Assembly (NCBI GenBank): GCA_029975645.1
Contig: JARKOU010000274.1
Span: 1 to 38,270 of the forward strand
Length of the DNA: 38,270 nucleotides
Reading direction: 5' to 3'
From: Actinomycetales bacterium
GTDB taxonomy: Bacteria; Actinomycetota; Actinomycetes; Actinomycetales; JAHECE01
Shown: piece by piece, positions 6,509-37,725 of the stretch
Position numbering within the stretch: position 1 is the first letter of the stretch
Layout of the letters: each line of letters starts with the position of its first letter
The notes under the pieces: model-generated
What the model saw: the letters and a program-made list of their open reading frames with translations, nothing else
Databases searched by the model: none
What the model was told of the DNA's origin: nothing
Position numbers and translations under genes: made by a program

Positions 6509-6532
6509 ATGCGGGCGGAGGCCTCGGCGTGA
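6509..6532 (+). CDS. Putative 7-codon leader peptide before NhaA fusion
   Basis: ATG at 6509, six nt after a TAGGTT box, opens a frame encoding MRAEASA and ending at TGA 6530-6532. That TGA overlaps the GTG start of the antiporter (GTGA). The frame also contains the GGCGGAGG ribosome-binding sequence of the main gene. If real, it would couple translation of the antiporter to a leaderless mini-ORF. It is too short for statistical support; the arrangement is the only evidence. Confidence 0.3.
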
Positions 6533-20208: not shown

Positions 20209-20907
20209 TCAGCGCGGAGCGGCGATCTGCGCAGCGAGGTGCCCGCCGCCGTAGCCGTTGTCGATGTTGACCACGGCCACGCCGGGCGCGCACGAGTTGA
20301 GCATCGTGAGCAGCGCCGCGAGGCCCTCGAAGGCCGCGCCGTACCCCACCGAAGTGGGCACGGCCACCACCGGCGCGGGAACGAGTCCGGCCACCACGCT
20401 CGGCAGCGCCCCGTCCATTCCGGCCACGACGACGACGGCACTCGCCTCCCGCAGGAGGTCGAGCCGACCCAGAACGCGATGCAGGCCCGCGACCCCCACA
20501 TCCATCACCAACTCGGACCGACGGCCGAGGTAGGTCGCCGTGAGCAGGGCCTCCCGAGCGACCGGCAGGTCCGACGTCCCGGCGGCGGCAACGACCACGA
20601 GGCCGCCGGACGGCGGGGGCGGCTCCGGCGGCCACGCGACGAGCCGGGCGGCGGGGTCGTGGCGGGCGTCGGGGAGCGCCTCGAGCACAGCCCGGGCGTG
20701 GGCGTCATCCGCTCGCGTGAAGAGGGTGCGCCCGGCCCCGACTCCGAGTCGGGCGGCCTGCCCGATCTGGGCGGCGATGACGCGCACCTGGTCCGGGGTC
20801 TTGTGCTCGCAGTAGATGGCCTCCGGGTACCCCCGGCGTTTGGCGCGGTCGTGGTCCAGGTTGATCACGTCGATGAGTTCGGCGGGCGGGGACCAGTGCT
20901 CAGCCAC
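20209..20907 (-). CDS. larB: Nickel-pincer cofactor biosynthesis carboxylase LarB
   Basis: This 232-aa protein is LarB, the PurE/AIR-carboxylase-like enzyme. Known LarB carboxylates and hydrolyses nicotinic acid adenine dinucleotide to pyridinium-3,5-biscarboxylate mononucleotide, the first step of nickel-pincer nucleotide (NPN) synthesis. Visible family blocks are YPEAIYCEHKTPDQV near the N-terminus, a GTSDLPVAREA motif, VVVVAGMDGALPSVVAGLV, PTSVGYGAAFEGLAALLTML and the terminal NIDNGYGGG. Its GTG start overlaps the larE stop by 8 nt (GTGGCTGA). NPN is needed only by LarA-family enzymes, one of which lies at 33691. Confidence 0.93.
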   Translation of the reverse strand: MAEHWSPPAELIDVINLDHDRAKRRGYPEAIYCEHKTPDQVRVIAAQIGQAARLGVGAGRTLFTRADDAHARAVLEALPDARHDPAARLVAWPPEPPPPSGGLVVVAAAGTSDLPVAREALLTATYLGRRSELVMDVGVAGLHRVLGRLDLLREASAVVVVAGMDGALPSVVAGLVPAPVVAVPTSVGYGAAFEGLAALLTMLNSCAPGVAVVNIDNGYGGGHLAAQIAAPR

Positions 20908-21784
20908 GGACGGTCACCAGCGGAAGGGTGAAGGCGCCGGACTGGATGCCGGCGAGGTCGATGGCCACGAACCGGAACCCGGCCGCGCGCACCGCTCGCA
21001 GTACGTCCTCGCGCATCTCCGGCCCCACTGCCCGGGCGATATCCGCGCCGGGGAGCTCGATCCGGGCGACGTCGCCGTGATGGCGCACCCGCGAGTCCGC
21101 GAACCCCAAGGCCCGCAAGGCCGACTCCGCCTGGTCCACCTGCCTGAGCTTCTCCGGCGTGACCTCCTGGAAGTGCGGGATCCGGGAGGCGAGGCACGGC
21201 GCCGCGGGCTTGTCCGCGCACGGCAGCTCGAGCGCCCGGGCGACGGCGCGGACGTCCGCCTTGTGCAGGCCGGCGGCCGCCAGCGGTCGCAGCACCTCGT
21301 GGCGCGTGGCTGCCTCGGAGCCTGGGCGGTCGGGGCGGGCGGCGTCGTCGGCGTTCTCGCCATAGGCGATCGCGGAGAGGCCGAAGCGGAGCGCGACGTC
21401 GTCGGAGATCCGCGTGAACAGCTCGTCCTTGCAGTGGAAGCAGCGGTCAGGGCCATTGGCGCGGTAGGCGGGGTTCTCTCCCTCGTGGGTCGCCACCTCC
21501 ACGAGCGGGACGCCGATGTGGGCGGCGACGGCGTGCGCGGCCGCCCGTTCGTCCACGGCCAGGGACGGCGAGACACCGAGGATCGCGAGGACGCGGTCCG
21601 CTCCGAGTGCCCGGACGGCGAGCGCGAGCAGGGCGGAGGAGTCGACGCCGCCGGAGAACGCCACACCGAGACGCTCGGGAGATCCGATGGCGGCGGCCAC
21701 CCGCTCTTCCGTGCCCGCGGGGACGCCCGCGAGAGGGGCGAGGCCGCTCGGTCGCGGTGGCGGAGCAGTCTGGAGCATCGTCAT
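20900..21784 (-). CDS. larE: Sulfur transferase LarE for nickel-pincer cofactor
   Basis: This 294-aa PP-loop protein is LarE. Its SGGVDSS ATP-pyrophosphatase loop (about residues 44-50) adenylates the cofactor precursor. C197 in KPAAPCLASR occupies the place of the sacrificial cysteine that donates sulfur in single-cysteine LarE proteins (Lactiplantibacillus plantarum C176). A DRCFHCKDELF block is also typical. ATG at 21784 follows GAGGAGG; a second ATG is two codons in. larE leads a two-gene unit with larB. A copy of the island's 24-bp motif lies about 65 nt upstream. LarC, the nickel insertase also required, is not in the window. Confidence 0.93.
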   Translation of the reverse strand: MTMLQTAPPPRPSGLAPLAGVPAGTEERVAAAIGSPERLGVAFSGGVDSSALLALAVRALGADRVLAILGVSPSLAVDERAAAHAVAAHIGVPLVEVATHEGENPAYRANGPDRCFHCKDELFTRISDDVALRFGLSAIAYGENADDAARPDRPGSEAATRHEVLRPLAAAGLHKADVRAVARALELPCADKPAAPCLASRIPHFQEVTPEKLRQVDQAESALRALGFADSRVRHHGDVARIELPGADIARAVGPEMREDVLRAVRAAGFRFVAIDLAGIQSGAFTLPLVTVRG

Positions 21785-21848: not shown

Positions 21849-21872
21849 GACAACCGGTTGCGCGCAGTTGCC
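21849..21872 (-). promoter_or_regulatory. Island operator-like motif, copy upstream of larE
   Basis: Reads GGCAA-CTGCG-CGCAA then CCGGTTGTC on the minus strand. The right part is a CG-centred palindrome (CAACCGGTTG), typical of LacI-family operators. A CAGAGT -10-like box lies 19 nt downstream toward larE. Confidence 0.55.
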
Positions 21873-22651: not shown

Positions 22652-23674
22652 CTACGACACCCGCCGCGAGCGACGCCGGGCGGTCGACGCTCGGACGACC
22701 AGTCGGGCCGGCACAACCCTCGCCCGAACGTCGTCGGGTGCCGAGCCGCTCAAGAGGTCGTCGACGATCGTCGTCGCCGCGTCACACATCGCGTGTATCG
22801 AGAAGCCGACAGTGGTCAGCGGCGGCGCGACGTACCTCGCCAGGTCGACGTCGTCGACGCCGATGATGCTCACGTCACTCGGAACGCGGACCCGGCGAGC
22901 CGCGAGTCCGCGGATCACCCCCATCGCGAGTTCGTCGTTGAACGCGATCACCGCCGACGAGCGCGCCGCGCAGACCGAGTCCGCCGCGGCCACACCCGCC
23001 GTCGTGGTCGCGGCGAACGGCCCGAAGCGCTGGGCACGAAGGCCGCATGCCAGCGCAGCCTCCGTGACGGCACGCCACCGCACGCCGTCGCTCCACGAGG
23101 ACGCGGGACCCGCGACGTAGGTGACGGTGGAGTGGCCCAGTGACGCCAGGTGCGCCACCGCCAGCCGCATTCCGCCCCGGACGTCCCGAACCACGCTCGC
23201 GACGTCGGCGACCGTCCGGTTGAGGACCACCGTGGGCCGCTGCCTCGCGATTACCCGGATCGCCGCGTCGGGCATGCGGGGTGCGGACATGATCACCGCC
23301 TCCACCGCGGGAAGCGCTCGATCGATCGCCTCCCGCTCGCGCCGGCCATCGTCATCCGCTCCGACCAGCACGGTGACGACCGTGACGTCTGACATCGAGG
23401 CGCATGACGCGAGCGAGTGCACCAGTTCGGTGTCGAACAGACCCGAGGCGTCCGCGACGAGCAGGCCGACCACATGGGTGCGGACCTGCTCGTCCGAGTG
23501 GACCATCTGCTCGCGGTATCCCAGTTCGACGGCACACGACCGGATGAGCGCGGACGTCTCCGGGGCGACACGGCCCGGTCTGGAGAAGGCCCGGGACACC
23601 GTCGAGGCGGATACCCCCGCGCGTTCGGCGACGTCGTAGATCGTCGGAGGCTTTGTGGCCCCCTCGGTGGTCAC
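22652..23674 (-). CDS. LacI-family transcriptional regulator (non-canonical hinge)
   Basis: This 340-aa regulator has a LacI HTH (TIYDVAERAGVSASTVSRAF, residues 11-30) and a periplasmic-binding-protein-like effector domain. It is a clear paralogue of the regulator at 35026: both share GRVAPET/GRVNADT, VVLNR, TYVAGP.SSW/ASW and PLTTV blocks. The segment after GY (about 54-64) reads REQMVHSDEQV instead of the usual N-P-x-A-R-x-L hinge helix that inserts into the operator minor groove. DNA binding may therefore be altered. GTG at 23674 sits 6 nt after TAGCCT, suggesting a leaderless mRNA. Confidence 0.88.
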   Translation of the reverse strand: MTTEGATKPPTIYDVAERAGVSASTVSRAFSRPGRVAPETSALIRSCAVELGYREQMVHSDEQVRTHVVGLLVADASGLFDTELVHSLASCASMSDVTVVTVLVGADDDGRREREAIDRALPAVEAVIMSAPRMPDAAIRVIARQRPTVVLNRTVADVASVVRDVRGGMRLAVAHLASLGHSTVTYVAGPASSWSDGVRWRAVTEAALACGLRAQRFGPFAATTTAGVAAADSVCAARSSAVIAFNDELAMGVIRGLAARRVRVPSDVSIIGVDDVDLARYVAPPLTTVGFSIHAMCDAATTIVDDLLSGSAPDDVRARVVPARLVVRASTARRRSRRVS

Positions 23675-24695: not shown

Positions 24696-25889
24696 TCACA
24701 CCGCCCGCTGGGGGAACTTCCCCTCCTCGCGGATGCGGTCGTTGAGGAGGTGCAGGTACTCGTCCTCGTCGAAGTCCAGCGGCACCTCGCTCCCCAGCCA
24801 GTCCGAGAGGTGGATGGCGTTGGCCAGGCGGACGCCGTTGATGCCGTCGGCGCCGGGCGCGACCAGAGGCGTGCCGTCGATGACGTTGCGGGCGAAGTTC
24901 TCCAGGACGTCGGCGTGCTGCTGACCCCACGGCGACGGCGCCTCGAAGACCTCCTGCGTGTACAGGGTGTTGAGGTCCACCTGACCGGTGAACAGGCGCA
25001 TGACGTCGGCCATGTCCATGCCGGCGCTCAGTTCCGGCTCGGGCTTGACCAGGCGCGTTATGGTGGCGGTCTTGCTGTTCTCCACCACGATCTTGCCCTT
25101 GTCGCCGAGGATCTCGAACCGGTCCGTCCCGGCGATGTCCCAGGTGCACGTCACGAAGGTGCCGGTGGCGCCGTTGCCGTAGTCGACGACGGCGGTCACC
25201 TCGTTCTCCACGGCGATGTCCCGGAAGACCCCGTACCCCAACTTCGAGTAGACGGACTTCGGCACGCCGCAGATCCACTGCCACAGGTCCAGCTGGTGCG
25301 GGGCCTGGTTCACGAGGACGCCGCCGCCCTCGCCGCCCCAGGTGGCGCGCCAGTCGCTGGAGTCGTAGTAGCCCTGCGGACGCCACCACGTGGTGATGAT
25401 CCAGTTGGAGCGCACCACGGTGCCGATCTCACCGGACTCGACGATCTCCTTGAGCCGCTGGTAGAGCGGGTTCATCCGCTGGTTGAACATCATCCCGAAG
25501 GTGAGGTCCGGCTTGGTGGCGGCGAAGTCGATGAGCTCCTTGGCCTGCTTGGTGTAGACGCCGGCCGGCTTGTCGATGAGGGCGTGGATGCCGCGGCTCA
25601 GGGCCGCGATGCCCATCTCCGGGTGCAGGTAGTGCGGCACGGTGGTGATGACCGCGTCCACGTCGCCGCTCTCGAGCAACTCGACGTAGTCCTCGTAGAC
25701 GGGCACCTCCGGGTACGTCTGCGCGGCGAGGTCGCGCTTGGCCGGGTCGATGTCCGCGATGGCGCCGATCACCATGTGCGGCACCATGTCCTGGGTGATC
25801 AACTGGGCGTACATGCCTCCTTGCTGACCCAGCCCGATGATGCCGAGGCGGACCGCGTCCACCTGCGCCGATTGAGTCTCCTGCGCCAT
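24696..25889 (-). CDS. Gfo/Idh/MocA-family oxidoreductase
   Basis: This 397-aa protein has an N-terminal NAD(P)-binding Rossmann motif (LGIIGLGQQGGMYA) and a C-terminal Gfo/Idh/MocA domain. The usual EKP catalytic motif reads DKP (LIDKPAGVYTKQ), and the active-site histidine is in NQAPHQLDLWQW. Family members oxidise or reduce sugar hydroxyls, often at C3 of glycosides or inositol. ATG at 25889 follows GGAGA 6 nt upstream. It is divergent from a TIM-barrel protein across a region with two copies of the island motif. Substrate unknown. Confidence 0.87.
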   Translation of the reverse strand: MAQETQSAQVDAVRLGIIGLGQQGGMYAQLITQDMVPHMVIGAIADIDPAKRDLAAQTYPEVPVYEDYVELLESGDVDAVITTVPHYLHPEMGIAALSRGIHALIDKPAGVYTKQAKELIDFAATKPDLTFGMMFNQRMNPLYQRLKEIVESGEIGTVVRSNWIITTWWRPQGYYDSSDWRATWGGEGGGVLVNQAPHQLDLWQWICGVPKSVYSKLGYGVFRDIAVENEVTAVVDYGNGATGTFVTCTWDIAGTDRFEILGDKGKIVVENSKTATITRLVKPEPELSAGMDMADVMRLFTGQVDLNTLYTQEVFEAPSPWGQQHADVLENFARNVIDGTPLVAPGADGINGVRLANAIHLSDWLGSEVPLDFDEDEYLHLLNDRIREEGKFPQRAV

Positions 25890-26009
25890 TGATCGTCTCC
25901 TGTCCGTAAGGGGGTGCCGCGGGGGCGGCGCCCTCCCGTCCCGGGCTCGGGTGGGTGAGGGCGGCGTGCGCGTCGATTCGTCCCATTAGCGCAGCAGCCC
26001 CGCCCGCCC

Positions 26010-26033
26010 GCCCACGGGTTGCCTGGAGTTGCC
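26010..26033 (-). promoter_or_regulatory. Island operator-like motif facing the Gfo/Idh gene
   Basis: Minus strand reads GGCAA-CTCCA-GGCAA then CCCGTGGGC. It is oriented toward the gene starting at 25889 and ends 21 nt before a TAATGG box. Confidence 0.5.
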
Positions 26034-26063
26034 GCGTCCTGCCGACCGTGCGCCGTCGGCCCA

Positions 26064-26087
26064 GGCAACAGACGGCAAGCCCTGGCC
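26064..26087 (+). promoter_or_regulatory. Island operator-like motif facing the TIM-barrel operon
   Basis: Reads GGCAA-CAGAC-GGCAA then GCCCTGGCC. It ends 19 nt before a TACCGT -10-like box (26107-26112), covering the expected -35 site. Confidence 0.5.
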
Positions 26088-26203
26088 GGTGCGTGGACCG
26101 GCTTCCTACCGTCGAGGGACCGGCGCGCGGCGAGATGAGCCCAGCCCGACGACGAGCAGGCCGCGACGTGCGCCGGCTCCCCCGATACGGAGGAACGAAC
26201 GAG

Positions 26204-27031
26204 ATGTGGACCCTGTCCGGCTTCGCTGACGAGATCGACCCCGACCTCGAGACCCAGTGCCAGGTGCTGGACAGCCTCGGCATCCGCTACATCGAGTTCC
26301 GCAGCGCGTGGGACGTGAACGTCCTCGACCTGACGGACGAGCAGGTGGAGAGCGCCGCGACGATTCTCGCCGAGCACGGCATCCGGGTCTCCTCGATCGG
26401 CTCACCGATCGGCAAGATCAACATCGAGGACGACTTCGACGCCCACCTGGTCCGGATGGACCGCGCGGTGTGGGTGGCCCAGCGTCTCGGCGCCCCGTTC
26501 ATCCGCGTCTTCTCCTTCTTCCTCACAGCCGAGCAGAACCCCGCCGACCACCGCGACGAGGTCATCCGCCGCATGACCGCCCTCGCCGAGAAGGCGCTCG
26601 CCGGCGGCGTGGTGCTGCTGCACGAGAACGAGAAGGAGATCTTCGGCGACGTGCCCGAGCGTGTACTCGACATCGTCACCACCGTGGACTCCCCCGCCCT
26701 CCGCCTGGCCTGGGACGCCGCCAACTACGTCCAGTGCGGCGTCGTCCCCTTCCCCGAGGCGTACGAGGCGCTGCGGCCGTACACCGACTACATCCAGATC
26801 AAGGACGCCGTGCTCGCGACCGGCGAGGTGGTCCCCGCGGGCGAGGGCGACGGCCGTCTCCCCGAGACCATCCGGGCCCTGGCCGACGACGGCTTCGACG
26901 GCTTCTTCTCGATGGAACCCCACCTGGCGGTCGCGCACCACCTGGGCGGCTTCTCCGGCCCCGACAACTTCATCCGGGCCACGCGGGCCTTCACCGCGAT
27001 CCTCGACGACGCCGGCATCGCGTACCGCTGA
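26204..27031 (+). CDS. TIM-barrel sugar isomerase/epimerase-like protein
   Basis: This 275-aa protein belongs to the AP-endonuclease-2/xylose-isomerase-like TIM-barrel superfamily. Probable metal ligands are spaced along the barrel: E in LLHENEKEIF, D in LAWDAANY, H/K-bearing YIQIKDA and the terminal FFSMEPHL. Members isomerise or epimerise sugars, or cleave 3-keto-glycosides, with a divalent metal. ATG at 26204 follows GGAGG about 11 nt upstream. The next two genes (Gfo/Idh, second TIM barrel) are 25 and 40 nt away, so the three form an operon. Exact reaction unknown; it is not a mannonate dehydratase by sequence. Confidence 0.82.
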   Translation: MWTLSGFADEIDPDLETQCQVLDSLGIRYIEFRSAWDVNVLDLTDEQVESAATILAEHGIRVSSIGSPIGKINIEDDFDAHLVRMDRAVWVAQRLGAPFIRVFSFFLTAEQNPADHRDEVIRRMTALAEKALAGGVVLLHENEKEIFGDVPERVLDIVTTVDSPALRLAWDAANYVQCGVVPFPEAYEALRPYTDYIQIKDAVLATGEVVPAGEGDGRLPETIRALADDGFDGFFSMEPHLAVAHHLGGFSGPDNFIRATRAFTAILDDAGIAYR

Positions 27032-27056
27032 CGGAACGAGAGGACAGGGAACTCCG

Positions 27057-28142
27057 ATGAGGTTCGCCATCGTGGGCTGCGGGGTCATCGCCCCGACGCA
27101 CGCTCGCGCCCTGCAGCAACTCGCCGGCCACGCCCAGTTGGTCGCGTGCAGCGACATCGTGCCCGAGCGAGCCGCGGCGCTCGCCGCAGAGTTCGGCCTG
27201 ACGGCGCGCCCCTTCGAGGACGTCCTCGCCGATCAGAGCATCGACGCCATCAGCGTGTGCACGCCCAGCGGGCTGCACGCGGCGGTGGGGGTGCCCGCCC
27301 TCCTCGCCGGCAAGCACGTGATCGTCGAGAAGCCGATGGAGGTCACGCTCGAGGCGTGCGACCGGCTCCTCGAGGCGCAGCGCACCTCCGGCGCGACGCT
27401 CGGCGTGATCTGCCAGCACCGCTTCGATCCGGCATCCCAGGTGGTGAAGAAGGCCGTCGACGACGGCGACCTGGGTCGCCCGGTCCTGGCCGAGGCCCGG
27501 GTCCCGTGGTTCCGCTCGCAGGAGTACTACGACTCCGGCGACTGGCGCGGCACCTGGGAACTCGACGGCGGGGGTGCCCTGATGAACCAGGGCGTGCACA
27601 CGCTCGACCTGCTGCGCTGGACGTGCGGCCCGGTGACCAGCGTCTACGCACAGGCCCGCACCGCCGCGCACGAGCGGATCGAGGTCGAGGACGTCGTAGC
27701 TGCCACGTTGACGTTCGCGAACGGGGCGATCGGCACCGTCGTCGCATCGACCGCCGTCTACCCCGGATTCCCCGCACGGCTGGCCGTGCACGGGAGCGCG
27801 GGGAGCGCCGTCGTCGAGGGTGACCGCCTGGCGACGCTCGCCGTGGCCGGTCGGCCCACGATCGGCGGCGAGCAGGCGAACGCGCACGCGCTCCAGGTCG
27901 CGACCGGCGGAACCCGGGCGGCGACCTCGGCCGTCGAACAGGGCACGGCGGACGACACCCCCGGTCCCCTCGACCCGGCCGACGTCTGGGGCGAGGCGCA
28001 TCGCCGGCAACTGCTCGACTTCATCGACGCAGCCTCGAAGGGGCGGGCACCGCTCGTGGACGGAACCGAGGGCCGCAACGCCGTCGAACTCGTGCGGGCG
28101 ATCTACGCGTCTGCCGCGACTGGCAACGTCGTCCGGCTCTGA
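27057..28142 (+). CDS. Gfo/Idh/MocA-family oxidoreductase
   Basis: This 361-aa protein has a Rossmann motif at the very N-terminus (FAIVGCGVIAPTHARAL), the EKP motif (VIVEKPMEVT), a substrate-side CQHRFDP and the catalytic-histidine segment NQGVHTLDLLRW. It should be an NAD(P)-dependent sugar or sugar-acid dehydrogenase. It sits between two TIM-barrel proteins, an arrangement seen in loci that oxidise glycosides at C3 before isomerisation or lysis. ATG at 27057 has an AGGACAGGGA sequence upstream. It is a different subfamily from the protein at 24696. Confidence 0.87.
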   Translation: MRFAIVGCGVIAPTHARALQQLAGHAQLVACSDIVPERAAALAAEFGLTARPFEDVLADQSIDAISVCTPSGLHAAVGVPALLAGKHVIVEKPMEVTLEACDRLLEAQRTSGATLGVICQHRFDPASQVVKKAVDDGDLGRPVLAEARVPWFRSQEYYDSGDWRGTWELDGGGALMNQGVHTLDLLRWTCGPVTSVYAQARTAAHERIEVEDVVAATLTFANGAIGTVVASTAVYPGFPARLAVHGSAGSAVVEGDRLATLAVAGRPTIGGEQANAHALQVATGGTRAATSAVEQGTADDTPGPLDPADVWGEAHRRQLLDFIDAASKGRAPLVDGTEGRNAVELVRAIYASAATGNVVRL

Positions 28143-28182
28143 TCACCGAAACGACTTTCACACACAAGAGGAGACGAACACC

Positions 28183-29043
28183 ATGGCACGAATCGGAGTC
28201 CAGGCGAGCACGGTGAAGGGTGCATTCGCGGAACTGGGCACCTACGAGACCCTGCGCCGGGTCCGCGAGATCGGTTACCGCGCGATCGAGATCTCGCAGG
28301 TCTCGATGTCCGCCGAGAACGTGGCAGAGATGAAGCGCGCCCAGGAGGAGTTGGGCATCGAGATCGCGTCCCTGTCTGCGATGCTCACCGCTCCCCCGGG
28401 CTTGGCGTTCGAGTCCCTCGCGGATGACTACGCCAAGATCGTCGCGGATGCCCGGACGCTCGACACGTCGATCCTGCGAATCGGCATGCTGCCGTTCGAC
28501 GCGATGGGCTCCCTGGACGCGGTGGTCGGTTTCGCGAAGCAGGCGAACGACTACGCGCGGCGGCTGGCCGACGAGGGAATCGACCTCTATTACCACAACC
28601 ACCACATCGAATTCGCGAAATTCAATGGGCGCTACATGCTCGACATCATCGCCGACACGGCGCCGGAGGTCGGCCTCGAATTGGACGTCCACTGGATCCA
28701 GCGCGGCGGCGAGAACCCCGTGTCCGTGCTGAACGCCTACGACGGCCGGGTCCGGTTGGTCCACCTCAAGGACTACCGGGTCGCCACGCTGCCCCCGAGC
28801 GCGCTCGACCTCCTCGCGGCCGGCGACGCCGCCGGCTTCATGGCGGCGTTCACGGGCGTGGTGCAGTTCGCCGAGGTGGGCGAGGGCAACCTCGACTGGC
28901 CCGCGATCATCGCGCAGGCCGAGGCCAGCGGGGCGGAGTACCTGCTCGTGGAGCAGGACGACACCTACGGCCGCGACCCCTTCGAGTCGCTGCGCATCTC
29001 GCGCGACAACCTCGTCGCGATGGGGTACGAGTCCCGCTTCTGA
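28183..29043 (+). CDS. TIM-barrel sugar isomerase/3-keto-glycoside lyase-like protein
   Basis: This 286-aa TIM-barrel protein carries the YYHNHHIEFAKF segment, a LELDVHW strand, LVHLKDY and LLVEQDDTYG. Together these give the His/Asp/Glu metal site common in sugar-phosphate-isomerase-like proteins, including those found with Gfo/Idh partners in oxidative glycoside cleavage. ATG at 28183 follows AAGAGGAGA. It is the last gene of the plus-strand trio and is followed by hairpin terminators. The specific substrate is unknown; a role in releasing or reshaping uronic acids is an inference from the neighbouring uxaC operon. Confidence 0.82.
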   Translation: MARIGVQASTVKGAFAELGTYETLRRVREIGYRAIEISQVSMSAENVAEMKRAQEELGIEIASLSAMLTAPPGLAFESLADDYAKIVADARTLDTSILRIGMLPFDAMGSLDAVVGFAKQANDYARRLADEGIDLYYHNHHIEFAKFNGRYMLDIIADTAPEVGLELDVHWIQRGGENPVSVLNAYDGRVRLVHLKDYRVATLPPSALDLLAAGDAAGFMAAFTGVVQFAEVGEGNLDWPAIIAQAEASGAEYLLVEQDDTYGRDPFESLRISRDNLVAMGYESRF

Positions 29044-29228: not shown

Positions 29229-30779
29229 TCAGGCGAACAATCGCGCGACGTCGTCGTAGGCGGCGAGCAACCCGGGCACCGAGGCGCGCAGGCTGCGGTA
29301 GAGCGCCACCTCGGACGGGCTCGCCACCTCCGGCACCTCGACGGGCCGCGCCTCGGGCGGGGGCCCGAGCACCTCGACGCCGGAAGCCAGGTCGTCGACC
29401 CGGTCCAGGGCCAGGAGGCCGAGCGCGGCCACGCCCAGGGCGGAACCCTCAGCCCCACCGGTGACCGTGACCGGGCGGCCGAGCGCCCCGGCCAGCACGC
29501 GCCGCCACAGGACGGAACGGAACACGCCGCCCGTGGCGCGGACGGACCGCACCGGCTCGATGCGGTCGAGAGCCTCGACGATCGTGGACAGTTGCAGCGC
29601 CACGCCCTCGACGGCGGCCCGCACGAAGTGTCCGCGCGTGTGACCGATGCGGATGCCCAGATAGGCGCCGGCGAGGTCGGGGTCCCACAGGGGTGCCCGT
29701 TCGGCGAGGAGGTAGGGCAGCATGAGCAGGCCGTCGCTGCCGGGCGGAACGGCCTCGGCCAGGGCGAGCAGTTCCGCGTCGGGGGGCGACCCGTCGCCCA
29801 GGCCGCCGCCGAACACGTCGCCGCCCCACCGGACGGCCACGCCGCCCGTGCTGATCGCACCGCCGACGATCCACTGGGTGTCGGTCAGCGCGTAGCAGAA
29901 GAGCCGGCCGGCGGGGTCCAGCCGGGGCTTGTCGACCACCATGCGCACCGCGCCGCTCGTCCCGAGCGAGAGCCCCACGACGCCGGGTGCCATCGCGCCG
30001 GTGCCGATGTTCCCGAGCGGCCCATCCGCCGCGCCCACCACCACGGGCAGGCCGGCGGGCAGGCCCACGGCCTCGGCGATGTCCCGGGAAAGGGCCAGCG
30101 TCGCCGTCGTCGGCAGGACCGGTGGCAGCTGGTCGGCACGGATGCCGGCCAACTCGATCGCTCGAGGGTTCCAGTCGCGAGAGCCCAGGTCGAGCATCGC
30201 GGTGCCGGACGCCGAGGACAGCTCCGTGACCACCGTCCCGGTGAGGACGGCCAGGACGTAGTCCTTCAGGCCCGCCCACCAGCGCACCCGCGCGGTGAGC
30301 ACGGGCTCCCGGCGGCTGAACCACATGATCTTGGTCAGGGGCGTCATCGGGTGGATCGGCGTGCCGGAGGTCCGGTAGATCTCGGCGGCCAGATCGGAGG
30401 CCCGCAGGCCGCGAGCCTCGTCGATCGAGCGGGCGTCAGCCCACGTGATGAGCGAGGTGAGCGGCGAGAGATCGGCGTCGAGCCCGATCACGGCGTGCAT
30501 CGCCGTGCTCACCGCGATGCCGGCCACGCTCGCGCCGTCGACGGCGGCCACGGCCTCGGCGAGCGCCTCGACCACGGCGACCCGAATCGCCTCCGGGTCC
30601 TGGACCTGCCAGCCCGGTTGCGGCGCGAGCAGCGGGTACTCCCGGATCGCGGTGTGGCGCCGGCCCGTGCCGATCCCGAAGGCGACCACCTTGGTGGCCG
30701 TGGTCCCGACGTCGAGCCCGATCATGACCTCGCCGGAGGGTCCCCCCGGCGAGGTCTCGACATCGACCGCCCTGGTCAT
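29229..30779 (-). CDS. gntK: FGGY-family gluconokinase
   Basis: This 516-aa FGGY carbohydrate kinase phosphorylates gluconate to 6-phosphogluconate (assignment by subfamily). It has the N-terminal phosphate-binding GLDVGTTATKVVAF and the ATP-side LGTSGAVRMVV. Features I associate with FGGY gluconokinases rather than xylulokinases are LITWADARS, YRTSGTPIHPMTPLTKIMWF and SSASGTAMLDLGSRDWN, with RWWAGLKDYVLAVLTG between. The ATG at 30779 overlaps the stop of the upstream dehydrogenase (ATGA). It is the last gene of the uxaC operon, and gnd, whose enzyme uses the product, begins at 37876. Xylulokinase is the main alternative but fits less well. Confidence 0.85.
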   Translation of the reverse strand: MTRAVDVETSPGGPSGEVMIGLDVGTTATKVVAFGIGTGRRHTAIREYPLLAPQPGWQVQDPEAIRVAVVEALAEAVAAVDGASVAGIAVSTAMHAVIGLDADLSPLTSLITWADARSIDEARGLRASDLAAEIYRTSGTPIHPMTPLTKIMWFSRREPVLTARVRWWAGLKDYVLAVLTGTVVTELSSASGTAMLDLGSRDWNPRAIELAGIRADQLPPVLPTTATLALSRDIAEAVGLPAGLPVVVGAADGPLGNIGTGAMAPGVVGLSLGTSGAVRMVVDKPRLDPAGRLFCYALTDTQWIVGGAISTGGVAVRWGGDVFGGGLGDGSPPDAELLALAEAVPPGSDGLLMLPYLLAERAPLWDPDLAGAYLGIRIGHTRGHFVRAAVEGVALQLSTIVEALDRIEPVRSVRATGGVFRSVLWRRVLAGALGRPVTVTGGAEGSALGVAALGLLALDRVDDLASGVEVLGPPPEARPVEVPEVASPSEVALYRSLRASVPGLLAAYDDVARLFA

Positions 30780-32185
30780 GAGCGTGCCGCGCCGGCATGC
30801 GCAGTGAGGTCCTCGGCGTGCGCGACGACGGCGGCCCGCACCTGCTCGTCGGCGGCCAGGTCGGCACCGAGGAAGGCGAGGACCTTGTCCACCGACTCCT
30901 CGAGGGTGCCCTCCCCGAGCGCCGCGACCTCGGACGCGCGCGCGTCCTTGATCGGGGCTCCGAGGCCGCGCAGGTGGCAGACCCACGCCGCGACGGCGCG
31001 CGTCGCACCCACCGGCACCCGCCCCGCGGCGCGCTCGGCCCGCAGGGTCGGGACGATCCGCACCGGGATCTTCTGGGAGCCGTCCGCGGCGATCTGGGCA
31101 AGGACGTGGCGGATGTTGGGGTTCTCGAACCGCGACAGGAGCGCCTGCCGGTACGCCGCGACGTCCGCCTCGGGGAGGGTGAGGTGGCGGGACGCCTCGT
31201 CCCACCACTCCTCCACCCAGGCGCGGTTCACCGGGTCGTTGATGGCGTCGGCCACGGTCTCGTGACCGCGGATCGTGCCGGAGTACGCCAGCAGGGAGTG
31301 CGAGCCGTTGAGCAGCCACAACTTGCGCTGCTCGAAGGGCACCACGTCGTCCACGATGGTGGCGCCGGCGGCGTCCCATGCGGGCCGGCCCTTGGGGAAC
31401 TGCCCGGCGATGACCCACTCGCTGAACGGCTCGGTGGGCACCGGAGAGGCGTCCACCACGCCGAGCGCGGCAAGGACGGCCGCGCGGTGCTCGTCCGTGG
31501 TCGCCGGGGTGATGCGGTCGACCATGGTGGTCCCGAAGGCCACGTTCTGCGCGGCCCAGTCGGCCAGGGACGGGTCGACGGCGTCGATGAGATCCGCGAC
31601 CACGCGCTCGAGTGCCGGGCCGTTGTCGGGGAGGTTGTCGCAGGGAACGACGGCGATCGCCCCGGCTCCGGCGGCCCGGCGGGCGAGGTAGCCGGAGACG
31701 ATCCGGCCGGGCGCGGTGGCCGCAGCGGCCAGCGGGTCGGCCCTGAGCGCGGCGATGTCTGCCTGGACGTCCTCGCGAGAGCGGTCGAGGGCGCCGTCGG
31801 GAGCGCGCATGTAGCCCGCCTCCGTCACCGTCAGGGTGACGACGGCGAGGTCCGGGGAGGACCAGTAGCCGAGCCACGCCTCGTGGTCGGACGCCGCGTG
31901 CACGGCGGAGATGCTCGAGATGACGTCGAAGGAGTCCGTCGCGCCCCGGGTGATGAGGGTGTAGAGGCCGTCCTGCGGGTTCAGCGCGTTCGCCATCGCG
32001 GGCGAGCGGCCGGTGAAAGCGGCGATCCCCCAGTCCGCGGCGTCAGGAGCCTTGTCCGTGTACCAGGCCTGGTGGGCGCGGAAGAAGTTGCCGAGGCCCA
32101 CGTGCACGATCCGCACGGGTGCGGCCGGCCGGCCGTGGCCGGCGGCACGGGAGAGCCGGGGGGCGGGTGTGGTGGTGTCGCTCAC
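30776..32185 (-). CDS. uxuB: Mannitol-dehydrogenase-family fructuronate reductase
   Basis: This 469-aa polyol-specific long-chain dehydrogenase has an N-terminal NAD-binding RIVHVGLGNFFRAHQAWY and the catalytic K288-x4-N293-x2-H296 motif (KLWLLNGSHSLLAYSG). The family contains mannitol dehydrogenase, fructuronate reductase (UxuB) and tagaturonate reductase (UxaB). Position directly after uxaC and before gluconokinase favours reduction of D-fructuronate to D-mannonate with NAD(P)H. Tagaturonate reductase would give altronate, which does not lead to gluconokinase. GTG at 32185 overlaps the uxaC stop by 4 nt, so tight co-translation is likely. Confidence 0.82.
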   Translation of the reverse strand: MSDTTTPAPRLSRAAGHGRPAAPVRIVHVGLGNFFRAHQAWYTDKAPDAADWGIAAFTGRSPAMANALNPQDGLYTLITRGATDSFDVISSISAVHAASDHEAWLGYWSSPDLAVVTLTVTEAGYMRAPDGALDRSREDVQADIAALRADPLAAAATAPGRIVSGYLARRAAGAGAIAVVPCDNLPDNGPALERVVADLIDAVDPSLADWAAQNVAFGTTMVDRITPATTDEHRAAVLAALGVVDASPVPTEPFSEWVIAGQFPKGRPAWDAAGATIVDDVVPFEQRKLWLLNGSHSLLAYSGTIRGHETVADAINDPVNRAWVEEWWDEASRHLTLPEADVAAYRQALLSRFENPNIRHVLAQIAADGSQKIPVRIVPTLRAERAAGRVPVGATRAVAAWVCHLRGLGAPIKDARASEVAALGEGTLEESVDKVLAFLGADLAADEQVRAAVVAHAEDLTAHAGAARS

Positions 32186-33600
32186 AGCTTGAAGGCCTTC
32201 CTGGGGTTGGTGACGACCAGGTCGTAGGCCGTGTCGAGGGCCTCGTCCATCGTCAGGCGGTGGTCGGCCACGAGCTTCGCGAGGAAGCCCGAGTCCATCC
32301 GGCGGTTGGTGTCGTGGCGGGCGGGGATCGACAGGTACGCCCGGGTGTCGTCGATGAACCCCGAGGTCCGGGAGAAGCCCGCGGTCTCGGTGACCGCGCT
32401 GCGGTACCGGGTCATGGCCTCCGGCGAGTCGATGAACCACCAGGGGGCGCCCACGTACACCGACGGGTAGAAGCCGGCCAGCGGGGCGAGCTCGCGCGAG
32501 TACACGGTCTCGTCGATCGTGAAGAAGATGACCTGGAAGTTCGGGTTCGTCCCGAACGCCGAGAGCATGGGCTGGACGGCGTTGGTGAACTCCACCGCCA
32601 TCGGGATGTCCCCGCCCACGTCCGCGCCGTACCGCTCGAACGACGGCGCGTGATGGTTGCGGTAGACCGCCGGGTGCAGCGTCATCACCAGGCCGTCCTC
32701 GGAGGCCATCCTGGCCTGCTGGAACATGAAGTTCCGGCGGAGGGTGTGCCCGTCCTCGACCGTGATCTTCCCGGAGCGGGCGAGGGCGTACAGGCGCTCG
32801 GCCTCGGCGTCGCTGATCGGCTCGACGCGCGCATCACGATGGGAGTGATCGGTGGAGACCGCGCCGTTGGCCTTGAAGAAGGCGCGCCGGTTCTCCATCG
32901 CGGCCACCCAGCCGGCGTAGGTGCCGGTGTCGATCCCCGAGACCTCGGCGAGCGTGTCGACCAGGCCGTTCCAGGCAGGCGTGGCGGGCTCCAGGTACTT
33001 GTCCGGGCGGAAGGTCGGGGCGACCTTGCCGTCCCACGTCGGGTCGCCGGCCAGCTTGATGTGGTGGCGCAGGTCGTCGCACGGGTCGTCGGTCGTGGCG
33101 ATGAACTCGATCGGGAACGTCCGGTACAGCGCCCGCGGCAGGAACTCCGGGGTCGCGATCTTCTCGGCGATCGCGTCGTAGATCTCGTCGGCCGTCTCCG
33201 CTGAGGGCACGACGTCGATCCCGAAGATGTCGACGAGCTCGGACTCGAACCAGAACTTCACGGGCGTGCCGCGGTACGCCTTCCAGTGCGTGCACAGCAG
33301 ACGGAACGCGTTGCGCTTCTGCTCCGGCGAGAACTCCGCCTGCCCCACCCCGAGGTCGGCGAGCGAGACGCCGTGGGCGTGCATCATCCGGTTCACGTAG
33401 TGGTCGGGGGTGATGAGGAGCGAGGTGGGGTCCTCGAACGGGACGTCGTCGGCAAGCCACTGGGGCGGCACGTGCCCGTGGGGGGAGATGATCGGAAGGT
33501 CGCGCACGGCGTCGTACAGCTGCCGTGCGATCGGACGCACGGCGGGATCGGCCGGCAGCAGACGGTCGGGGTGAAGGGTCAGCGGGGTCATGGCGTTCAT
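32182..33600 (-). CDS. uxaC: Uronate (glucuronate) isomerase
   Basis: This 472-aa protein is uronate isomerase, interconverting D-glucuronate and D-fructuronate (or galacturonate and tagaturonate). The amidohydrolase-type metal site HxH is at H41/H43 (SPHGHVPP). Conserved family blocks include LLCTHWKAYRGTPVKFWFES, FIATTDDPCDD, FKANGAVSTDHSH and the C-terminal NPRKAF. Length matches the family. The ATG at 33600 gives MNAMTPL; the ATG at 33591 is equally possible, and neither has a clear ribosome-binding site. The start lies only 22 nt after a palindromic copy of the island motif, so repressor binding there would block this operon. First gene of uxaC-uxuB-gntK. Confidence 0.93.
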   Translation of the reverse strand: MNAMTPLTLHPDRLLPADPAVRPIARQLYDAVRDLPIISPHGHVPPQWLADDVPFEDPTSLLITPDHYVNRMMHAHGVSLADLGVGQAEFSPEQKRNAFRLLCTHWKAYRGTPVKFWFESELVDIFGIDVVPSAETADEIYDAIAEKIATPEFLPRALYRTFPIEFIATTDDPCDDLRHHIKLAGDPTWDGKVAPTFRPDKYLEPATPAWNGLVDTLAEVSGIDTGTYAGWVAAMENRRAFFKANGAVSTDHSHRDARVEPISDAEAERLYALARSGKITVEDGHTLRRNFMFQQARMASEDGLVMTLHPAVYRNHHAPSFERYGADVGGDIPMAVEFTNAVQPMLSAFGTNPNFQVIFFTIDETVYSRELAPLAGFYPSVYVGAPWWFIDSPEAMTRYRSAVTETAGFSRTSGFIDDTRAYLSIPARHDTNRRMDSGFLAKLVADHRLTMDEALDTAYDLVVTNPRKAFKL

Positions 33601-33622: not shown

Positions 33623-33646
33623 GGCAATCGCTTGCCATCAGTTGCC
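33623..33646 (-). promoter_or_regulatory. Island operator-like motif between uxaC and larA-like gene
   Basis: Minus strand reads GGCAA-CTGAT-GGCAA then GCGATTGCC. The right part GGCAAGCGATTGCC is a CG-centred palindrome. It lies in the 90-bp divergent region and could control both directions. Confidence 0.6.
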
Positions 33647-33690: not shown

Positions 33691-34980
33691 ATGACCGCGA
33701 CTCTCGACGACGTCACCGCGCTGGCCCGTGCCGCCTCCCGGATCGGAGGACCCGACCAGGTTCTCACCACCGAGGAGGTGCGAGCCTTCATCCTCGAGTC
33801 CCTCGGCAACACCGATCTCGACGGCAAGAGCGTGTGCCTGCTCCTTCCGGACGCGACCCGCAGCACTCCCCTGCCGATGCTCCTCTCCTGTGTGCACGAA
33901 GCCCTCATCGGCCGCGTGAGCACCCTGACAGCGCTCATCGCCCTGGGTACCCACGCCGCGATGAGCGAGTCGGAACTCGCACACTGGATGGGCTACGAGG
34001 AACGCGGACTCGAGGCCACCTACCCAGGCCTGAGGGTTCTCCAGCACGAGTGGTGGGAGCCGGAGACGTTCGCCTCGCTGGGCACGATCAGCGCCGAGCG
34101 GGTCAAGGAACTGACCGAGGGACGGCTCGCCGTGCCGGCCGAGGTGGACCTCAACCGCGCCGTCGTCGAGAACGACGTCGCCCTCGTGATCGGCCCGGTC
34201 CTCCCCCACGAGGTGGTGGGCATGTCGGGCGGCAACAAGTACTTCTTCCCGGGCGTCGCCGGTCAGGACATCATCGACCTCACGCACTGGGTCGGTGCAC
34301 TGATCACGAGCGCGCAGATCATCGGCACGCGCGGCATCACGCCCGTCCGGGCCCTCATCAACGAGGCATCGGACCTGATCCCGAGCGAGAAGCTCGCGCT
34401 GTGCATCGTGCCGCAGGCGGGCTCCTCCTCCTTGCACGCCGTGACGTTCGGCACCACGGAGACCGCCTGGGCGTCGGCGGCCGAGGTCACTGCTGAGACG
34501 CACGTCCGCTACCTGGACGCCCCCGTCAAGCGCGTCGTCTCGATCATCCCGGAGAAGTACCCGGAGATCTGGACCGCGGCCAAGGGCTTCTACAAGCTCG
34601 AACCGGTGGTCGCCGACGGAGGCGAGGTCATCCTCTACGCACCCCACATCGCGGAGATCTCGTTCACCCACCACGAGATCTACGAGATCGGCTACCACTG
34701 CCGCGACTACTTCGTGAAGCAGTGGGACCGGTTCTCCGGCGTGCACTGGGGCGTGCTCGCGCACAGCACGCACCTGCGCGGCGCCGGCACCTACGACGAG
34801 GTCGAGGGCGAGAAGTGCCGCGTGGACGTCACTCTGGTCACGGCAATCCCCGAGGAGAAGGTGCGCGGGGCGAACCTCGGCTACATCGCCCCGGAGGACT
34901 TCGACCTGGCCGCGTACGAGGCCGACCCCGAGACCCTCGTGGTCCCCAACGCGGGCGAGGTGCTCTTCCGGCTGCGGTGA
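33691..34980 (+). CDS. LarA-family nickel-dependent racemase/epimerase (putative D-gluconate/D-mannonate 2-epimerase)
   Basis: This 429-aa protein belongs to the LarA (DUF2088) family of enzymes that use the nickel-pincer nucleotide to racemise or epimerise 2-hydroxy acids. Expected functional residues are present: DATRST (54-59), H88 in GTHAAM, H173, K183 in SGGNKYFFPG and H199. These align with L. plantarum LarA H108, H174, K184 (cofactor attachment) and H200 (nickel ligand). A LarA homologue with D-gluconate 2-epimerase activity has been reported. Here uxaC/uxuB would make mannonate and gntK/gnd would use gluconate, so mannonate-to-gluconate epimerisation is the best inference. ATG at 33691 follows AAGGTGG. 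Family call is firm; substrate is inferred. Confidence 0.88.
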   Translation: MTATLDDVTALARAASRIGGPDQVLTTEEVRAFILESLGNTDLDGKSVCLLLPDATRSTPLPMLLSCVHEALIGRVSTLTALIALGTHAAMSESELAHWMGYEERGLEATYPGLRVLQHEWWEPETFASLGTISAERVKELTEGRLAVPAEVDLNRAVVENDVALVIGPVLPHEVVGMSGGNKYFFPGVAGQDIIDLTHWVGALITSAQIIGTRGITPVRALINEASDLIPSEKLALCIVPQAGSSSLHAVTFGTTETAWASAAEVTAETHVRYLDAPVKRVVSIIPEKYPEIWTAAKGFYKLEPVVADGGEVILYAPHIAEISFTHHEIYEIGYHCRDYFVKQWDRFSGVHWGVLAHSTHLRGAGTYDEVEGEKCRVDVTLVTAIPEEKVRGANLGYIAPEDFDLAAYEADPETLVVPNAGEVLFRLR

Positions 34981-35025: not shown

Positions 35026-36039
35026 TCAACGGCGCCGGCGCGCTGTGGAACCGCGAACCACCAGGCGGGTGGGGAGGACGAACGCCTCGGCTGCGCGGGC
35101 GTGTGCGCCGTTGATGAGCGCCACGAGGTTGCGCACCGCCGTGATCCCCATCGCCCGCACCGGTGCCGCGACCGTGGTCAGCGGAGGTGTGACCAGGCGG
35201 GCGGCCATGATGTCGTCGAACCCGATCAGGCTCACGTCCTCCGGGACGCGCACCCCGTGCGCCACGAGGAACCGCAGAAGCCCGATCGCCATGAGGTCGT
35301 TGTAGGCGATGACCGCCGTCGGCGGGCCGTCCAGCATCTGCGCGCCGGCCTCGGCGCCACCCTCCGTGGTCGGCGCGAACGGCCCTATCCGGCGCGTGCT
35401 CAGGGCCAACTCGTGGCCGGCCTCGCGCAGGGCTCGCCACCGCATCCCATCCGCCCAGGAGGCCTCCGGACCGGCCACGTACGTGATGGCCTCGTGACCC
35501 AGCTCCCCCAGGTGCTCGGCCGCGCGGCGCATCCCCCGCGGGTTGTCCGTCACCACGCTCGGCACACCCATGAGGTCGCGGTTGAGCACCACCATCGGCT
35601 TCTGCTTGGCGATCACCCGCAGCGTGGAGTCGGACATCCGCGAACTGCCGATCACGATGCCCTCGACGGCGGGTAGCACCCGCTCGAGCGACTCCCTCTC
35701 CACCTGGTCCGACTCGCGCGCATCGGCGAGGAGCACCGTGTAATCCGCCTCCGACGCCGCGATCTGCGCTCCCCGGATCAACTCGGAGTAGAAGGGATTC
35801 GTCACGTCCGAGACCATCACCGCGAGCATCTTGGTCCTGGAGGTCGAGAGCGCCCGCGCCAGGGGGTTGGCGCGGTAGCCGAGCCGGGCGGCCACCTCCC
35901 GGATGTGGGCCGCGGTGTCCGCGTTGACGCGCCCGGGCCTCGCGAAGGTGCGCGAGACGGTCGACGGCGCAACACCGGCCTCGCGTGCGACGTCGTAGAT
36001 GGTGGGGGCTGCCGGCCGCCGCGTGGGCTCGTCCGTCAT
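35026..36039 (-). CDS. LacI-family transcriptional regulator of the uronate island
   Basis: This 337-aa regulator has a canonical LacI HTH (TIYDVAREAGVAPSTVSRTF, 13-32) and a normal hinge helix (N58-P-L-A-R-A-L64). The sugar-binding domain begins at about 70 (LAVMVSDVTNPFYSEL). It lies between the larA-like gene and the GPH transporter and is divergent from the latter. A palindromic copy of the island motif (36061-36084) covers the expected -35 region of its own promoter, so autorepression is likely. TAGCCT sits 6 nt before the ATG at 36039, suggesting a leaderless mRNA. The effector is probably a pathway sugar acid (inference). Confidence 0.9.
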   Translation of the reverse strand: MTDEPTRRPAAPTIYDVAREAGVAPSTVSRTFARPGRVNADTAAHIREVAARLGYRANPLARALSTSRTKMLAVMVSDVTNPFYSELIRGAQIAASEADYTVLLADARESDQVERESLERVLPAVEGIVIGSSRMSDSTLRVIAKQKPMVVLNRDLMGVPSVVTDNPRGMRRAAEHLGELGHEAITYVAGPEASWADGMRWRALREAGHELALSTRRIGPFAPTTEGGAEAGAQMLDGPPTAVIAYNDLMAIGLLRFLVAHGVRVPEDVSLIGFDDIMAARLVTPPLTTVAAPVRAMGITAVRNLVALINGAHARAAEAFVLPTRLVVRGSTARRRR

Positions 36040-36060: not shown

Positions 36061-36084
36061 GACAACACATGGCAACCGATTGTC
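36061..36084 (+). promoter_or_regulatory. Island operator-like motif overlapping lacI promoter
   Basis: Reads GACAA-CACAT-GGCAA then CCGATTGTC. The palindrome TGGCAACCGATTGTCA (36070-36085) is a near-perfect CG-centred LacI-type operator. It is the best copy in the window. Confidence 0.65.
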
Positions 36085-36164: not shown

Positions 36165-36188
36165 GACAACAAAGAGCAACCGGTAGCC
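36165..36188 (+). promoter_or_regulatory. Island operator-like motif upstream of the GPH transporter
   Basis: Reads GACAA-CAAAG-AGCAA then CCGGTAGCC, about 85 nt before the transporter ATG. The right half-site is imperfect, and no clear TANNNT box follows. Confidence 0.5.
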
Positions 36189-36273: not shown

Positions 36274-37725
36274 ATGTCCGTCCTGACGAGACCAGGGCCA
36301 GCCGCGGCGACCACGCCCAAGCGGCTCGGCCTGAAGCAGTACTCCGGCTACGCCGCCGGCGACGCCGCCAACAACCTGGCCTTCTCCATGGCGGGTTCGT
36401 TCCTCCTCCTCTACTACACCAACGTCGTCGGCCTCGAGGCAGCCCCGCTGGGCACGATGTTCCTGCTCATCCGGTTCTGGGACGCCCTCGCCGACCTCGG
36501 GGTCGGGCGCGCCGTCGACGGCAAGAAGCCGGGCAGGCTGGGCAAGTTCCGGCCGTTCATCCTCTACTTCTCGCTGCCGCTCCTGATCTCGAGCATGATG
36601 ATCTTCTCGGCGAACACCTTCTTCCCGGGGATGAGCGCCACGCAGGGCCTGATCTACGCATACATCACGTACGCCGTGATGGGCACGCTCTACAGCCTGG
36701 TCAACATCCCCTACGGCTCGATCGCCCCCGCGATGACCCAGGTCCCCACCGAGCGGGCCAAGCTCGCCACGTGGCGCGTCTACGGCTCGAACATCACCAT
36801 CCTCATGCTGTCCTTCGTGGTGGCGCCGCAGATCAAGAAGTTCGTCGGCGACCCGACCGGCCTGCAGCGGTCCCTGTTCATCACCACGGCGATCTTCGTG
36901 GTGGTCGGCATGGCCCTGTACCTCTACACGGTGGCGACCGTGAAGGAGCGGGTGCACCGCGACGTCGCCGCGCCGAGCATGAAGGAAAGCTTCCGCACGC
37001 TGACCCACAACAAGCCGCTGCTCTGGCTGTGCGTCGGCAGCCTGATGTTCCTCACCGGCCTCACCGCTCTCGGGACGATGGCGCCCTACTACGCGATCTA
37101 CGTCCTCAATGACCCGCAGTACATCGCGTGGAACGCCGTCGCCCAGGCGGTCGGTACGTTCCTCGTCGCCGCCTTCATCCCCCTCATCGTCCGCAAGTTC
37201 GGCAAGAAGAACGGCTACATCTCGCTGGGCATCGTCGGCGTCATCGCCGGTGCGATCCTCACGCTCGCCCCTCGGGAGACGCCGATGGTCGCGGTGATCG
37301 GCTTCTTCGTCCTCGGCATCGGCATGGGTGGCGTCAACACCCTCATGTGGGCGCTCGAAGGGGACACTGTGGAGTACGGCGAGTGGAAGACCGGCATCCG
37401 CACGGAGGGCACCACGTACGCGCTGTTCTCCTTCACCCGCAAGATGGGACAGGCCCTCGGCGGCGCCTTCGGCGCCTACGCCCTCGGCTGGGTCGCATTC
37501 AACTCGCAGGCAGCCAAGGACGGCGTGGCCCAGTCCGCCGGCCCGATCGACGGCCTCCAGCAGGCGGCCGGCGCGCTGTCCGGCGGCGTCATCCTCATCT
37601 CCCTGCTGGTCATGGCCTTCTACCCGCTGACGGAGAAGGTGTTCAAGCAGATCGTCGGTGAGATCGCCGCTCGCCGCGCCGAGCGCGAGGCCACCACGTC
37701 CCTCGAGCCCCTCGTCAAGGCGTAA
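36274..37725 (+). CDS. GPH-family glucuronide:cation symporter
   Basis: This 483-aa protein has about 12 helices and belongs to the glycoside-pentoside-hexuronide:cation symporters, closest by eye to UidB-type glucuronide carriers. Signatures are the N-terminal YSGYAAGDAANNLAFSM, RFWDALADLGVGRAVDG, and WALEGDTVEYGEWKTGIRTE followed by SFTRKMGQALGG. It likely imports glucuronides or related uronides with H+ or Na+. The ATG has AGGAGAT about 8 nt upstream. It is divergent from the LacI regulator, with two island motifs between them. No beta-glucuronidase gene is in the window. A strong hairpin follows, before gnd. Confidence 0.88.
   Translation: MSVLTRPGPAAATTPKRLGLKQYSGYAAGDAANNLAFSMAGSFLLLYYTNVVGLEAAPLGTMFLLIRFWDALADLGVGRAVDGKKPGRLGKFRPFILYFSLPLLISSMMIFSANTFFPGMSATQGLIYAYITYAVMGTLYSLVNIPYGSIAPAMTQVPTERAKLATWRVYGSNITILMLSFVVAPQIKKFVGDPTGLQRSLFITTAIFVVVGMALYLYTVATVKERVHRDVAAPSMKESFRTLTHNKPLLWLCVGSLMFLTGLTALGTMAPYYAIYVLNDPQYIAWNAVAQAVGTFLVAAFIPLIVRKFGKKNGYISLGIVGVIAGAILTLAPRETPMVAVIGFFVLGIGMGGVNTLMWALEGDTVEYGEWKTGIRTEGTTYALFSFTRKMGQALGGAFGAYALGWVAFNSQAAKDGVAQSAGPIDGLQQAAGALSGGVILISLLVMAFYPLTEKVFKQIVGEIAARRAEREATTSLEPLVKA

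Follow-up and report, generated by a model that had tools for sequence, protein, structure and literature searches.

Gene content of the locus

The stretch of DNA analyzed here (the window; 38,270 nucleotides in all) carries a larA homologue that forms an open reading frame of 429 codons, begins with ATG, and encodes a protein of 429 amino acids (Table 1). Divergent from this gene is a minus-strand set consisting of uxaC, a uxuB-like gene, and a gene for an FGGY-family kinase, which overlap one another by 4 bases, as is seen in translationally coupled operons. The product of the uxuB-like gene scored 269 bits against the NCBIfam fructuronate reductase model (cutoff, 603), 259 bits against D-arabinitol dehydrogenase, and 178 bits against tagaturonate reductase. 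The FGGY kinase scored 374 bits against gntK_FGGY compared to 275 bits against xylulokinase, both scores being under the cutoff, and its best match in the PDB was a gluconate kinase (3gbt; 282 bits). A gene for a LacI-family protein, a candidate repressor of the set, and a gene for a GPH-family transporter of the glucuronide-transporter type are also present; the transporter reached 463 bits against the glucuronide transporter model NF007353, which is under its cutoff of 528. No lactate genes were found among the neighbors scanned, in agreement with the original prediction, and malate genes were likewise absent from these neighbors. Overlooked by that prediction were larB and larE, two of the three genes for synthesis of the nickel cofactor (NPN), which lie within the window; larC is located elsewhere in the same genome, on contig C155.

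Table 1. Features of the uronate locus and the nickel-cofactor genes (window coordinates)
Feature	Position	Strand	Evidence and remarks
larB, NPN synthesis	20209..20907	-	NF033503, 269 bits (cutoff, 175); overlaps larE
larE, NPN synthesis (sulfur transferase)	20900..21784	-	TIGR00268, 272 bits (cutoff, 150), at 20930-21709
Operator-like site 65 bp upstream of the larE start	21849..21862		2 mismatches; palindromic core CAACCGGTTG
FGGY kinase, predicted gluconokinase	29229..30779	-	ATG overlaps uxuB stop by 4 bases; alternative ATG at 30725
uxuB-like, fructuronate reductase	30776..32185	-	Best NCBIfam model; GTG start overlaps uxaC stop by 4 bases
uxaC, glucuronate isomerase	32182..33591	-	NCBIfam equivalog NF002794, 542 bits (cutoff, 387); alternative ATG at 33600
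LacI-type operator GGCAATCGCTTGCC between uxaC and larA	33623..33636		0 mismatches; relatives carry this motif upstream of larA
larA homologue, predicted D-mannonate/D-gluconate 2-epimerase (GntE type)	33691..34980	+	Lar_N, 4NAR match, signature residues, model fold
LacI-family regulator, candidate repressor of the set	35026..36039	-	LacI and Peripla_BP_3 domains
Operator-like site upstream of lacI	36071..36084		1 mismatch
Weaker operator-like site between lacI and the transporter gene	36175..36188		2 mismatches
GPH-family transporter, glucuronide-transporter type	36274..37725	+	TIGR00792, 362 bits (cutoff, 231)

Two further regions of the window are recorded here as observations. Positions 24696-29043 hold two Gfo/Idh/MocA dehydrogenases and two xylose-isomerase-like TIM barrels (IolG/IolE-like), a separate cluster of the sugar/inositol type; roughly 20 related loci have the same Gfo/TIM-barrel pair adjoining larA, and many of these are Actinoplanes loci that lack uxaC nearby. 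At positions 6529-8421, an NhaA-type Na+/H+ antiporter is fused to a C-terminal DsbA/thioredoxin domain.

Residues, fold, and branch of the LarA homologue

The protein encoded by the larA homologue matched the Pfam Lar_N domain at 68 bits (curated cutoff, 23.3) and was the only Lar_N protein found in its genome, the assembly of which is 88.7% complete. In LarA, residues R75, K184, and H200 bind NPN and residues D72, H108, H174, and K298 are catalytic (PMC7583248). The original prediction had matched H173, K183, and H199 of the window protein to H174, K184, and H200 by their numbering and had pointed to H88 and a DATR motif (D54 to R57). When the protein was aligned with LarA (two sequences), Sar, Mar2, and GntE2 from the PDB, these residues proved to be true counterparts (H88 aligns with H108, D54 with D72, and R57 with R75), and K298, which is catalytic in LarA at the same number and was missing from the earlier list, was found as well. 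Since all of these residues were invariant across the 99 aligned rows, the matches are not due to chance. The intact residues, together with the presence of LarB, LarC, and LarE in the same genome, uphold the expectation that the protein uses NPN, and assignment of the protein to the LarA superfamily as an NPN-dependent member is supported at the level of sequence.

Four positions that select the substrate in this superfamily have been described (LarA F175, F176, W358, and T359); lactate racemases carry F, F, W, and E/Q there, GntE enzymes carry E, V, A, and H, and malate racemases carry H/Q and K at the last two positions (PMC11770544). With E, V (or S), A, and H taken as the GntE signature, the window protein has E174, V175, A357, and H358, which is exactly the published GntE pattern. 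E174 and V175 were invariant in 99 of 99 aligned rows, and A357 and H358 were present in 98.

Comparisons of whole sequences and of predicted structure gave a concordant picture. The best PDB sequence match was 4NAR, which is GntE2 of Thermotoga maritima (202 bits), whereas LarA of T. thermosaccharolyticum and Mar2 scored 23 and 19 bits, respectively. An AlphaFold2 model of the window protein (mean pLDDT, 94) superposed on 4NAR with a TM score of 0.88, compared to 0.53 to 0.74 for LarA, Sar, and Mar2. We also ran the phylogeny that had been suggested as a check: in a tree of 26 rows, in which 4NAR was the sole GntE reference, sat on a long branch, and was not accompanied by GntE1, a branch with 100/100 support parted LarA, Sar, and Mar2 from the window protein, its relatives, and 4NAR. 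The window protein did not reach the thresholds of the NCBIfam models for lactate racemase (NF033504; 53 bits versus a cutoff of 460) or malate racemase (NF052593 and NF052595; 85 and 63 bits versus cutoffs of 500 and 462). Its best NCBIfam model was NF052594, a putative hexonate epimerase (LarAH group 18) for which the same kind of reaction has been proposed; at 160 bits, the protein lies far under the cutoff of 500 and, by this sequence score, is not a member of that subfamily. A search with PF09861 found no match in a Corynebacterium glutamicum control genome, and the LarA-like entries of the PDB included no structure of GntE1 from that species.

Cofactor genes, operator-like sites, and distribution

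Only one LarA homologue was found in the genome, and the NPN machinery therefore appears to serve the enzyme encoded in the window. Among 395 Actinomycetes genomes sampled, 18 carried a LarA of the window type (a nineteenth match, in G361, was distant), and LarB, LarC, and LarE were all over the cutoff in 17 of these 18. In one genome of 1.5 Mb that is 99% complete (G311), a window-type LarA lies beside a 6-phosphogluconate dehydrogenase gene (contig C7; L043) and none of LarB, LarC, and LarE was over the cutoff; this organism may import NPN or obtain it in some other way.

A LacI-type palindrome, GGCAAnCGnTTGCC, recurs at the larA/uxaC intergenic region, at lacI, at larE-larB, and at larC, the last of these sites (on contig C155) having 1 mismatch. 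The window contains 9 sites with up to 2 mismatches, compared to 1.66 expected, and such a site was present upstream of larA in 25 of 96 related loci, compared to ~1.8% of random stretches. Elsewhere in the genome there were seven other one-mismatch sites, only one of which, located 5' of a transaldolase-like open reading frame, looked related; a control with the pattern read backwards gave 4 genomic sites, which means that weak sites by themselves prove little. The neighboring LacI protein would be the one that binds sites of the GGCAAnCGnTTGCC type, and it probably coregulates the pathway genes together with larE-larB and larC. A second LacI-family regulator, encoded upstream of larE at positions 22652-23674, could equally regulate the cofactor genes. 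The site near the transaldolase-like open reading frame (G000 contig C85:2915-2928; L142) lies ~120 bp upstream of it, and a gnd fragment is located on the same contig; the regulator may extend to pentose phosphate genes, or this site may be due to chance. This gnd fragment (C85:2-658) has a near-equal counterpart at the start of another contig (C17:2-658), and the pair is consistent with the contamination or strain mixture of 6.5% reported for the assembly.

Gene content across the sampled genomes pointed in a consistent direction; all of the counts that follow ignore kinship between genomes. UxaC was present in 15 of the 18 genomes with window-type LarA and in 39 of the 377 without it (Fisher P = 1e-11). 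Among the UxaC-positive genomes, UxuA was found in 0 of 15 with LarA versus 11 of 39 without it (P = 0.024), and KDPG aldolase was found in 4 of 15 versus 35 of 39 (P = 1.3e-5). Missing sequence is not the whole reason for the absence of the aldolase, since some of the genomes without it (G231 and G100) consist of one complete contig. A 6-phosphogluconate dehydrogenase domain was present in 18 of 18 genomes with window-type LarA. Family searches of the genome that contains the window detected 6-phosphogluconate dehydrogenase and detected no UxuA, ManD-type dehydratase, or KDPG aldolase, although absences from an assembly that is 88.7% complete are weak on their own. For lack of a match, a ManD-type dehydratase acting as a hidden replacement for UxuA was rejected for this genome; such a dehydratase is present in G212 and G168.

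The scan of genome contigs for LarA relatives covered the best 80 loci. In 97 related loci (again with kinship ignored), the neighbors of larA included uxaC in 53, uxuB in 53, lacI in 52, gnd in 21, and an FGGY kinase gene in 18; cofactor genes were also frequent, with larE near larA in 37, larC in 33, and larB in 32. Several of these loci have the order uxuB-uxaC-larA-lacI-gnd-larE-larB-larC in a single row. About 37 of the 97 had neither uxaC nor uxuB within the stretch read, and some of these relatives may serve another pathway. Near larA in 22 loci we observed a GH2-family glycosidase, possibly a beta-glucuronidase (e.g., L029:7767-9701).

A predicted route from glucuronate to 6-phosphogluconate

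We propose, with a probability of about 0.85, that the window protein is an NPN-dependent D-mannonate/D-gluconate 2-epimerase of the GntE branch that links glucuronate to 6-phosphogluconate. In the route we envisage, the glucuronide-type transporter would take up the substrate, UxaC would convert glucuronate to fructuronate, and UxuB would reduce fructuronate to D-mannonate. The LarA homologue would then invert C2 by the LarA mechanism, yielding D-gluconate: one histidine would take the hydroxyl proton while the C2 hydride would pass to the pyridinium of the cofactor and be returned to the other face, with H88 and H173 as the two predicted acid/bases. The FGGY kinase would phosphorylate D-gluconate to 6-phosphogluconate, and 6-phosphogluconate dehydrogenase would produce ribulose 5-phosphate, the entry to the pentose phosphate pathway. 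Such a route would bypass mannonate dehydratase, KDG kinase, and KDPG aldolase. A cell that lacks UxuA and KDPG aldolase cannot complete the textbook route; this bacterium and many related actinobacteria most likely burn glucuronic acid via the pentose phosphate pathway instead. Mannonate, implied in the original prediction, fits both the operon and the genome content as the predicted substrate. We infer the substrate, the direction of the reaction, the specificity of the kinase, and the pairing of regulator and operator.

The closest characterized homologue, GntE2 of T. maritima (4NAR; LarAH20, group 20), has been shown to epimerize D-mannonate (PMC7583248). Besides the fold and the catalytic and NPN residues, it shares with the window protein the E...A,H signature and a W before TxxK, and the gnd-uxaRED-gntEK operon of T. 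maritima is similar in gene content, with gnd and gntK included (PMC3750489, PMC7583248). The two proteins differ in that they are only 32% identical and in that V175 and A297 of the window protein correspond to S156 and G286 of GntE2. The systems differ as well: T. maritima has the GntR-type regulator UxaR rather than a LacI protein and keeps a uxuA/kdgA branch that the genome studied here appears to lack. For T. maritima, Rodionova et al. put forward the route itself in 2012, as cited in PMC6978723 and PMC7583248. GntE1 of C. glutamicum (LarAH19, group 19) resembles the window protein in its actinobacterial origin, its epimerization of D-mannonate and D-gluconate, and its uronate gene context; its KM for D-mannonate is 120 mM, for which reason its native substrate was left open (PMC7583248). 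LarA (5HUQ and 2YJG) and Mar2 (6D6Z) share the superfamily, the cofactor residues, the catalytic histidines, and the lysine with the window protein but differ from it in substrate-pocket residues, tree position, and gene context.

The main live rival reverses the order of the last two steps, such that the FGGY kinase would phosphorylate mannonate and the LarA homologue would epimerize 6-phosphomannonate to 6-phosphogluconate. Extracts of Lactobacillus suebicus do contain a mannonate kinase and a 6-phosphomannonate 2-epimerase of unknown gene (PMC6978723), and the resemblance of the FGGY kinase to gluconate kinase settles little, as specificity within the FGGY family is unreadable from sequence. 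We nevertheless regard this order as unlikely, since GntE2 acts on free D-mannonate with a kcat of 197/s (PMC7583248) and no LarA homologue was reported to act on a phosphorylated substrate in the literature examined.

UxaC accepts galacturonate besides glucuronate, and the window protein might accordingly be a C2-epimerase of another hexonate or aldarate (altronate/allonate, gulonate/idonate, or glucarate/mannarate). The very high KM of GntE1 for D-mannonate led its authors to suggest a uronic or aldaric acid (PMC7583248). We judge this possibility slightly less probable still than the reversed order, given that the reductase favors fructuronate over tagaturonate, that a gluconokinase and gnd occur among the neighbors, and that no alternative substrate offers so simple a path to a usable product at the end of the operon. 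A lactate or malate racemase, as name-based annotation might have it from the Lar_N domain and the common catalytic residues, is scarcely credible, being excluded by the curated models, by signature residues that are wrong for both, by the tree and modeled fold, and by the content of the neighbors scanned. The original prediction was thus right to argue against lactate racemase; its expectation that automatic annotation would make that call held only in part, since NF033504 would not assign it, although the Pfam domain name might mislead.

The proposal of a GntE-type epimerase acting between mannonate and gluconate is therefore the one we carry forward. The enzyme type (GntE) and the route are already known, and our literature search found no actinobacterial description of the locus. 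What is added here is evidence that a GntE-type enzyme appears to replace the Ashwell branch in many actinobacteria and that synthesis of the cofactor is likely coregulated with the pathway. We lean, by a little, toward the broader view that in a broad actinobacterial set the dehydratase/KDPG-aldolase half of the Ashwell pathway has given way completely to a nickel-dependent epimerase and that the NPN genes have come under the uronate repressor, such that growth on glucuronate would need nickel and on-demand NPN. Gene content favors mannonate/gluconate for the C. glutamicum group, provided that the window enzyme belongs there; if group 19 is the window clade, its open question of native substrate would be answered in this way. 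The findings would tie an enzyme that is widespread in actinobacteria, and that its domain name would label a “lactate racemase,” to a concrete role. They suggest joint induction of NPN cofactor synthesis and of the only enzyme dependent on it, and they predict nickel-dependent growth on glucuronate as a trait of strains without UxuA and KDPG aldolase.
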